Origin: an uncultured Macellibacteroides sp.
GTDB taxonomy: Bacteria > Bacteroidota > Bacteroidia > Bacteroidales > Tannerellaceae
Assembly (NCBI RefSeq): GCF_963667135.1
Contig: NZ_OY762974.1
Coordinates: forward strand, 2,604,001 to 2,668,000
Direction of reading: 5' to 3'
Length of the DNA stretch: 64,000 nucleotides
The notes under the pieces were generated by a model. That model ran no database searches. It worked only from the letters and a program-made list of their open reading frames with translations, and was not told the origin of the DNA. The position numbers and the translations under genes were made by a program. Numbering within the stretch: the stretch's first letter is position 1; the number at the start of each line of letters is the position of its first letter. Below, piece by piece: positions 41,609 to 47,893 of the stretch.

Positions 41609-42622
<1,014 letters not shown>

Positions 42623-45742: not shown

Positions 45743-46267
45743 ATGACTCTATCCAGGCTTGTTATTCGTTTTTCATTTTTTCTTATGCTTCTGCTTCTTG
45801 TTTCCTGCGGAACCAGAAAGCAATTTACACCCGAATCGCCTCCCGCCGACGATTTATCTCAACTTTACGGCATACGAATAACGAATGAAGATAACGTAAC
45901 ACTCTACACCCAAGCCGCTCAATGGCTGGGAGTGCCCCATAGGTACGGAGGCGCCGATAAGAAAGGGGTGGATTGCTCGGGGTTTGTTGCCATCCTTTAT
46001 CAAAAAGTATATGGCCGAAAACTTTCACGATCGTCGGCCGACATGCTGAAGCACGATTGCCGGAAAATTTCGCGCAGCAAGTTACGCGAAGGCGATCTTG
46101 TTTTCTTCCGGACAGAATCCGGTCGGAAAAAGTTGCCCAATCATGCAGGGATCTACCTTAAAAACGACAAATTTATACATACCAGTACATCCCGTGGGGT
46201 GATGGTGAGCAGTCTGAACGAACCCTATTACCTGCGAACCTGGATTTCCGGAGGGAGAGTAAAGTAA
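45743..46267 (+). CDS. NlpC/P60 family lipoprotein (C40 peptidase)
   Basis: 174-residue cell-wall hydrolase anchored by a lipobox (LLVSC, Cys22). Catalytic Cys78 in GVDCSGFVAILYQ and His134 in NHAGIYL match the NlpC/P60 Cys-His pair that cuts peptidoglycan stem peptides between D-Glu and the diamino acid. A TAAGTTTG box at 45719-45726 gives a very short leader. Downstream lies the palindrome array. Confidence 0.93.
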   Translation: MTLSRLVIRFSFFLMLLLLVSCGTRKQFTPESPPADDLSQLYGIRITNEDNVTLYTQAAQWLGVPHRYGGADKKGVDCSGFVAILYQKVYGRKLSRSSADMLKHDCRKISRSKLREGDLVFFRTESGRKKLPNHAGIYLKNDKFIHTSTSRGVMVSSLNEPYYLRTWISGGRVK

Positions 46268-46323
46268 TCCCTTAACAGTTTAGCGTACCGCATAGTACCC
46301 ATTAACCGTCCGCATGCCTATGT
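46268..46323. other. Spacer after the NlpC/P60 gene
   Basis: Forms, with 46422-46585, the ordinary part of a 354-bp gap between two genes. No frame, RNA gene or T-tract hairpin is seen in it; the notable content is the palindrome array that follows. Confidence 0.4.
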
Positions 46324-46421
46324 TTAGTTGGTCACACACCCGTGTGACGTTGGTCCCACGATTGCGGGACGACGGTCACACGTATGTGTGACGAACATCC
46401 CACGTACGTGTGACCAACTAA
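46324..46421. repeat. Array of four 18-bp palindromes with 22-bp period
   Basis: Units start at 46331, 46353, 46375 and 46397, each 18 bp, separated by 4 bp. The pattern is GTCnCAC-N4-GyGnGAC: GTCACACACCCGTGTGAC, GTCCCACGATTGCGGGAC, GTCACACGTATGTGTGAC, ATCCCACGTACGTGTGAC. The whole is closed by a perfect 14-bp inverted repeat, TTAGTTGGTCACAC at 46324-46337 and its complement at 46408-46421. Two words alternate: a GTCACAC type and a GTCCCAC type. No T tract follows, so it is not a normal terminator. Confidence 0.9.
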
Positions 46422-46585
46422 TCACTATAGTCTTCGTCCTTATTCTTCGTATTCAAAATCCTTACTCATCGTTGTATGTTACTTAACCATCCGAAGAGTT
46501 TTTTTTAGAAGTAGGTTTTTCCATAAACATTGGATAAAGTTTTTTATCATTTGCTGTTAAAATAGTATGTTCTCTATAATTTGTT

Positions 46586-46593
46586 TAACTTTG
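46586..46593 (+). promoter_or_regulatory. -7 box of serS
   Basis: TAACTTTG, 28 bp before the serS ATG. No clear -33 element. Confidence 0.5.
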
Positions 46594-46621
46594 TGGCTCA
46601 ATTAAAAAGCATAGATAAAGT

Positions 46622-47893
46622 ATGTTGACGCTTAAAGTAATTACGGAGAATCCGGACGAAGTAATCCGCAGGTTGGCCAAAAAGCATTTTGATGCGAAAG
46701 AGATTATCGGTAAAATTATCGAGTTAGATAAAACAAGACGTACTACCCAGTCGGTTCTTGATGAGAATTTGGCAACGCTGAATAACTTATCGAAAACAAT
46801 CGGTGCCCTGATGAAGGAAGGAAAGAAGGACGAAGCCGAACAAGCCCGCGCCAAAGTTGCCGAAATTAAAGAAGGTAACAAGGAGTTGGATGCAGCTAAA
46901 ACGGCTGCGGAACAGGAAATGAATAACCTGCTGGTGCTGGTTCCTAATTTACCTCATGATTCGGTTCCCGAAGGACGTGTAGCTGAAGATAACATATGCG
47001 AAAAAACAGGAGGAGTAGTTCCTCAATTGCATGCTGATGCGGTTCCTCACTGGGATCTATGCAAGAAATATGATCTTATCGATTTCGAATTGGGCGTTAA
47101 GATTACAGGAGCAGGTTTCCCGGTTTATAAAGGATATGGTTGCCGTTTGCAACGTGCCCTTATAAATTTCTTCCTTGACAATGCACGCGAAGCAGGTTAT
47201 CTTGAAATACAACCTCCATACGTTGTAAATGCCGATTCAGGCTATGGTACTGGTCAGCTTCCCGACAAGGAAGGCCAGATGTATCATGCAACGATAGATG
47301 ATCTTTATCTTATTCCAACAGCCGAAGTACCTGTTACCAATATCTACCGTGATGTTATTCTGAACGAATCCGAACTTCCTGTCAAGAATGCAGCCTATTC
47401 TGCTTGTTTCCGTCGTGAAGCAGGTTCATATGGAAAAGATGTTCGCGGTTTGAATCGTTTGCACCAGTTCGACAAAGTAGAAATTGTGCGGATAGATACG
47501 CCGGAACATTCTTACGAGTCGTTGAAGGAGATGGTTGATTATGTGCAATCACTGGTAGACAAGCTTGAACTTCCATGGCGTATACTTCGCCTTTGTGGGG
47601 GAGATATGAGCTTTACTTCTGCTATCACGTTCGACTTTGAAGTATATTCTGCTGCTCAGGAACGTTGGTTGGAAGTAAGTTCTGTTTCAAACTTCGAAAG
47701 CTATCAGGCAAACCGTTTGAAATGCCGTTACCGCGATGCAAGCAAGAAAACACAACTTTGTCACACGTTGAACGGTAGTGCCCTGGCTTTGCCTCGTATC
47801 GTGGCCGCTTTGTTGGAAAACAACCAGACGCCAGAAGGTATCCGTATTCCCAAGGCACTTGTGCCTTACACAGGTTTCGATATGATTAAGTAA
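46622..47893 (+). CDS. serS: Serine-tRNA ligase
   Basis: 423-residue class II synthetase. N-terminal antiparallel coiled coil for the tRNA-Ser long arm (about 30-105). Catalytic core with motif 2 CFRREAGSYGKDVRGLNRLH (split: FRREAGSYG and RGLNRLHQF) and motif 3 LNGSALALPRIVAALLENNQ. Monocistronic, ended by a 21-bp-stem terminator. Confidence 0.98.
   Translation: MLTLKVITENPDEVIRRLAKKHFDAKEIIGKIIELDKTRRTTQSVLDENLATLNNLSKTIGALMKEGKKDEAEQARAKVAEIKEGNKELDAAKTAAEQEMNNLLVLVPNLPHDSVPEGRVAEDNICEKTGGVVPQLHADAVPHWDLCKKYDLIDFELGVKITGAGFPVYKGYGCRLQRALINFFLDNAREAGYLEIQPPYVVNADSGYGTGQLPDKEGQMYHATIDDLYLIPTAEVPVTNIYRDVILNESELPVKNAAYSACFRREAGSYGKDVRGLNRLHQFDKVEIVRIDTPEHSYESLKEMVDYVQSLVDKLELPWRILRLCGGDMSFTSAITFDFEVYSAAQERWLEVSSVSNFESYQANRLKCRYRDASKKTQLCHTLNGSALALPRIVAALLENNQTPEGIRIPKALVPYTGFDMIK

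Follow-up and report, generated by a model that had tools for sequence, protein, structure and literature searches.

The array at positions 46324-46421 of the window (the whole 64,000-nucleotide stretch of DNA that was analysed) is probably a chromosomal site of an HU-HIG/winged-helix protein, at which four dimers are predicted to form one complex. Binding of HU-HIG proteins to arrays of this kind is suggested by the proximity of the arrays to HU-HIG genes, by the inheritance of the motif among close protein relatives and by the modelled protein fold.

The window array consists of four dyads at exact 22 bp steps, enclosed by a perfect 14 bp inverted repeat (Table 1). The unit starts, the 4 bp linkers, the exact inversion of the closing arms and the location between an NlpC/P60 gene and serS were all reproduced as given in the original prediction, whose description of four 18 bp palindromes holds for units 1 and 3 and is slightly generous overall, because 25 of the 28 arm pairs match (7 bp arms, four units) and the mismatches fall in units 2 and 4. 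Scored over four units of 9 pairs each, the array reaches 29/36 at period 22, whereas none of 40 shufflings of the whole window exceeds 24 and none of six other periods gives more than 22; it is not a product of chance. It was said to have no second copy in the window, and indeed the next best place, at 42606, has a different appearance and a near-background score of 23. The array is not a CRISPR, being made of dyads with 4 bp linkers rather than direct repeats with unique spacers, and by reading it is not an intrinsic terminator, since TCACTATAG follows position 46421 with no T tract; on both points the earlier judgement stands.

Table 1. Coordinates, in the window, of the array and its surroundings
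Feature	Position	Strand	Details
Dyad unit 1	46331..46348	.	GTCACACACCCGTGTGAC; arms perfect
Dyad unit 2	46353..46370	.	GTCCCACGATTGCGGGAC; one arm mismatch
Dyad unit 3	46375..46392	.	GTCACACGTATGTGTGAC; arms perfect
Dyad unit 4	46397..46414	.	ATCCCACGTACGTGTGAC; two arm mismatches
Closing inverted repeat, left arm	46324..46337	+	TTAGTTGGTCACAC, 14 bp
Closing inverted repeat, right arm	46408..46421	-	GTGTGACCAACTAA, exact inverted copy of TTAGTTGGTCACAC
Left flank, weak 22 bp periodicity, about three degenerate units	46265..46330	.	lag 22 = 0.33
Right flank, 22 bp periodicity, about three degenerate units	46419..46488	.	lag 22 = 0.52, top lag
NlpC/P60 gene, upstream neighbour of the array	45743..46267	+	
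serS, downstream neighbour of the array	46622..47893	+	start codon ~200 bp from array

Two features absent from the original prediction are a weak 22 bp rhythm that continues into the flanks (about 46265-46488) and the many relatives of the array elsewhere in the genome. In the left flank of the window array lag 29 (0.37) exceeds lag 22, and the right flank contains two repeat copies 22 bp apart. Pooled over 31 arrays of the same genome (six of 37 left out), the same-base frequency at lag 22 is 0.368 in left and 0.385 in right flanks; other lags give 0.26-0.34, and control stretches far from the arrays give 0.262.

BLASTN with the window array recovered five arrays of four units each, namely the window array itself and those at 4.436, 1.120, 4.035 and 3.331 Mb. 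The last two (4034696 and 3330830) stand immediately before an HU-HIG gene (PF18291, E 2e-28), within a 2.2 kb duplicated segment of 94% identity, and by this sequence relationship we assign the window array to the family found at these two genes (3.33 and 4.03 Mb). When the genome search originally proposed was run with a strict pattern, six places in the 4.46 Mb genome matched, with 16 strand matches among them. A second array family, with CAGCTG cores, was first found at 0.383 and 0.558 Mb. A joined query of ten arrays of this genome had 74, 56 and 42 matches when run against three genomes of the genus. Combining the matches listed with the pattern and BLASTN places, the genome holds at least 46 array places in several sequence families (36 were scored unit by unit, some of them with only two or three good units). 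Of these places, 11 immediately precede HU-HIG genes, and three lie some 515 bp upstream of short ones. The solo arrays sort into families that match the arrays of particular HU-HIG genes.

Long HU-HIG proteins join an HU fold to a winged helix in about 200 aa. The genome that contains the window has 18 HU-HIG matches (20 including TIGR01201), a sister species (G001) has 14, and the richest of 59 family genomes searched has 27; in the first genome other paralogs, too, carry upstream arrays of the same geometry and different sequence. We scored 71 HU-HIG genes: 18 from this genome, 29 from a search of the family (the top listed matches, one per genome, out of 59 genomes), 14 from a search of the order and 10 from named records. 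Two ordinary 90 aa HU genes (L048, L049) and duplicate entries for genes already included (L054, L080, L087, L089, L094, L097) were left out before the count, and the near-identical sets L040/41/42, L043/44, L038/L101 and L086/91 are not independent. Genes encoding 180 aa or more were called long; 54 of these 56 were testable, L072 and L084 being excluded for having less than 200 bp upstream, and three further long genes had too little downstream DNA, leaving 51 for downstream tests.

An array is present within 300 bp upstream of 43 of the 54 long genes at p<=0.01 (47 at p<=0.05; 1000 shuffles each) and downstream of none of the 51 at p<=0.01. With a plain cut at score 22 the corresponding counts are 42/54 and 0/51, and 1/51 for the upstreams of other genes in the window (serS excluded). 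Before long genes, period 22 has a mean best score of 23.4, whereas each of the 12 other periods from 18 to 30 stays at 17.9-18.4. The number of units that stand out from background there is exactly four: on aligned arrays, agreement (of 9) is 2.7 before, 5.6, 6.2, 6.3 and 6.4 within, and 2.8 after, where the four inner units were picked as the best run and their flanking neighbours were not picked. The array ends 41-179 bp from the start codon, and 58-70 bp from it in 20 of the 43. All ten named-record loci have an array (p<=0.004; nine labelled Parabacteroides, among them P. gordonii, P. goldsteinii, P. faecis, P. faecalis and two Parabacteroides-labelled MAGs, and one labelled Izemoplasmatales), these loci having been found with one HU-HIG subfamily of this genome and hence being its relatives. 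The remaining 11 long genes do not reach p<=0.01, and for six of these p is 0.1 or higher. One miss, L041, is explained by an array lying 1.7 kb upstream, beyond a DDE transposase ORF at L180; for L040 and L042, paralogs nearly identical to it, the distance is 61 bp. That unit count and step are kept while the letters are free points to a protein complex of set geometry, and the original argument that a 22 bp step (two helical turns) would place bound dimers on one face of the DNA is strengthened, because 22 bp is retained while the letters change.

Short HU-HIG genes (under 180 aa, n=15), which encode no winged helix, have an upstream array at p<=0.01 in one of 15 cases, and in five of 15 an array of three to four units lies downstream, 0-30 bp past the stop codon. 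These five (L063, L067, L071, L074, L075) show dyads at 22 bp steps, several with an AAAA-G+C core-TTTT layout, and the four-unit array of L071 scores 33/36. Three others (L030, L031, L036) have arrays about 515 bp upstream, where a small DUF4248 gene adjoins each array (L181, L182, L183). Arrays thus accompany even proteins that lack this domain, so that something other than the winged helix may read them.

The prediction that the array might be a multi-hairpin RNA lost ground. Such an RNA, or a single-stranded DNA site acting by folding (attC-like, for example), would suit the strong predicted folding of the + strand of the window array, at -54.2 kcal/mol (z -5.5); inverted repeats fold anyway, however, and we regard an action through folding as very improbable. 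Half-sites of one array share 5.5-6.1 of 9 positions, irrespective of which unit they belong to and which way they point, while those of different arrays share 3.5; arms match partners in other units (5.5) nearly as well as their own (6.1, a value inflated by the choice of register). In several arrays of the L042 family unit 1 even fits the reverse complement of unit 3 better than it fits itself. Exact 22 bp phasing has no reason in a folded strand, covariation of the arms as hairpins has no clear support, and Rfam gives no family above its gathering score in 46000-46900.

Position relative to genes bears on control of transcription. Lying in a tandem gap some 200 bp upstream of the serS start codon, the window array could be taken for an ordinary local operator of serS or nlpC, bound by a classical repressor unrelated to HU-HIG; to this we give very little credence, because the array is absent at serS in the sister species, its family members adjoin unrelated genes, and the same half-sites precede HU-HIG genes. 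A purely local serS operator is rejected, given that absence and the occurrence of arrays in all kinds of gap. With gap types assigned by a simple ORF caller, 37 arrays divide into 22 in tandem, nine in convergent and five in divergent gaps, and one within an ORF, and a link between solo arrays and gene 5' ends finds no support in these counts. An operator array, as had been proposed, fits the copies that precede HU-HIG genes, but the nine of 37 between convergent genes argue against plain promoter operators. That solo arrays take no account of how genes are oriented speaks for DNA structuring or selfish spread rather than for promoter control.

Another explanation is MITE- or REP-like miniature mobile DNA, in which the array would be the recognised part of a small element moved by some recombinase, and HU-HIG genes would travel along or assist. 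The dozens of dispersed copies, the duplicated segment that carries the 3.33 and 4.03 Mb arrays, the convergent gaps and the absence of the window and 4.436 Mb arrays from the sister species would all be in keeping with mobility, as would a closing repeat that, at a perfect 14 bp, has the terminal inverted form expected of a MITE. Sequence common to array copies extends over about 100-250 bp in some families and more than 1 kb in others, often stopping 40-150 bp past the array. Among the 68 ORFs adjoining 35 arrays four are transposases, three of one DDE type and one IS66, yet these resemble ordinary insertion sequences beside arrays, and the other 64 are mostly household families, DUFs or unmatched. 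The REP-like unit first suggested accords with the scattered solo copies and lacks its usual partner: the Y1 transposase family (PF01797) has no match in the same 68 ORFs, and the partner genes are PF18291. The contrary case named in advance, a catalogued repeat scattered with variable spacing, agrees with the array in being scattered and differs in that the array has a fixed spacing and matches no Rfam family above its gathering score. No clean empty site or target duplication was seen at two junctions (serS; L157 against the sister species), both hard to align, the serS gap of the sister species being too diverged for the array ends to be placed. Mobile DNA also leaves unexplained why 43 of 54 long HU-HIG genes are preceded, within a limited range of distances, by arrays unrelated in sequence, and we think it unlikely as the explanation.

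Several arrays have recurrent neighbours. The same 386 aa DDE transposase adjoins L162, L177 and L180 (near 6 kb, 2.528 Mb and 2.720 Mb), and an IS66 transposase adjoins L170. Arrays with AAGCTT cores (L167, L168, L169, L181) lie inside repeats whose common sequence reaches several hundred bases to either side of the array, and their neighbours include a Fic protein and DUF4248.

Comparison with a second genome of the species shows that cores can differ far more than their surroundings. At six solo loci 100 of 504 core positions differ and 136 of 2767 flank positions, and at five HU-HIG-linked arrays 15 of 420 and 48 of 2085; for the window array the figures are 4/84 and 16/520. The core excess comes mainly from two loci, at 3.784 and 3.112 Mb, where 35 and 37 of 84 core positions differ, one genome having an L042-type core and the other an L037-type core. 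The outer repeats and flanks run on unbroken there, with 25/395 and 35/518 flank differences (93-94% alike); at two of six loci the solo arrays have changed family in place. Unit 1 corresponds to the reverse complement of unit 3 in both rewritten cores of the second genome (G002), exactly so in L214, as is largely true of L042-type arrays in general; arrays at 1.429 and 1.833 Mb of the first genome look like hybrids of the L042 and L037 types. In the sister species two other orthologous genes have different-looking upstream arrays, L122 (score 25) and L114 (21, weak). At L216 (G002 contig 47), the ortholog of the 0.830 Mb locus, 100 N replace the array and its right flank, suggesting that arrays may break draft assemblies and be undercounted.

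Motif and protein were compared with 11-base half-sites, 9-base half-sites missing register shifts. Motif similarity exceeds 0.6 in 15 of 16 gene pairs with at least 60% mean protein identity and in 6-18% of less related pairs. Mantel tests on 36 representatives gave r 0.20 (p 0.006) for the HU part and 0.17 (p 0.004) for the winged helix, so that beyond close relatives the correlation between the sequences is weak, and part of it comes from shared descent. Individual cases go both ways: L083, from another family and 45% identical to the 4.03 Mb protein, has the same GTCAC half-sites, yet L081 and L082 (47 and 46% identical to that protein) have other motifs and, with proteins 83% identical to each other, a motif similarity of 0.52. 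A candidate pair for one protein with two motifs, L100/L102, was rejected, the motif being the same and shifted by one half-step. For L101, which comes from a named record and shares 97% identity with L038 of this genome, an AF2 model (pLDDT 81.8, pTM 0.52) has an HU-like part at about residues 34-120 and a C-terminal winged-helix-like part at 137-196, the placement of the domains relative to each other being unreliable because of the low pTM. It matches 4fmr (a Bacteroides vulgatus DNA-binding protein), HU and IHF in the PDB, and more weakly AspA, MarR and ArsR (AspA E 5e-3, C-terminal domain).

The component parts are of known kinds, and the closest analogues each lack a defining feature. 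REP/BIME elements are dispersed intergenic palindromic units, and their RAYT (TnpA-REP) genes are flanked by the same unit; the likeness extends to the gene beside its own unit, whereas the partner there is a Y1 transposase and here HU-HIG, with four dyads at a fixed 22 bp. ParB/parS, MatP/matS, AspA and ParR centromeres have palindromic or tandem sites, one of them beside the protein's own gene, a likeness to which the weak structural match with AspA may be added. They differ from the present case, where many families of paralogs and arrays occur per genome, with an HU domain and four dyads, and a reading by eye of the ORFs near the 3.33 and 4.03 Mb genes revealed no partition NTPase. The clades of the HU superfamily have reportedly been treated by Burroughs et al. 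in 2017. The array partner is itself a member of the HU-HIG/TIGR01201 group of HU-related proteins of Bacteroidota, for which the literature searched, a set leaving most subscription papers outside, gave no DNA target. Of two papers in that set, one lists an HU-HIG protein in a table and no more (PMC11035120), and the other is a general comparison of HU and IHF (PMC5683647). The BrickBuilt MITE of Porphyromonas gingivalis resembles the arrays in being intergenic, multi-copy and built of short tandem repeats within inverted ends in a member of the Bacteroidota, but its 23 nt repeats are direct, as opposed to four 22 bp dyads tied to HU-HIG genes, and 'palindrom-' is absent from the text of its paper (PMC4596501). 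The combination of HU-winged-helix paralogs, four-dyad arrays each with its own spelling and dispersed arrays that switch family in place appears new, no match having been found in that set of literature.

On the reading that we favour, a site for an HU-HIG/winged-helix protein, each dyad would take up one dimer, with a winged helix on either inverted half-site, four dimers would line up on one face of the DNA two turns apart, and the HU bodies would bend or wrap the ~100 bp to give a single closed complex. The array beside an HU-HIG gene would act as the operator of that gene, its position suggesting autoregulation. Solo sites would carry the same complex independent of any particular neighbouring gene; such copies would multiply, and their cores would be rewritten in place, the probable route being conversion between arrays whose outer repeats are alike. 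In the window, this would amount to a local HU-HIG complex between nlpC and serS, and an effect on serS is possible.

A bolder proposal, which we offer tentatively and hold to be rather doubtful, is that the paralogs form parallel, paralog-specific DNA-packing particles, i.e. fixed four-dimer complexes at their own promoters and at solo arrays, with arrays switching paralog by in-place conversion and the set of sites being strain-specific.

The gene-side four-dyad array gives each of the numerous HU-HIG proteins a concrete candidate target. Together these putative protein/site pairs form a natural series in which the geometry is constant and the letters change, and the two switched loci offer a case of site sequence turnover in place between conspecific genomes with the architecture kept. 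If the paralog-specific particles are real, these bacteria would have a rapidly rewired nucleoid or silencing system, possibly reflecting an arms race between paralogous selfish protein/site pairs.
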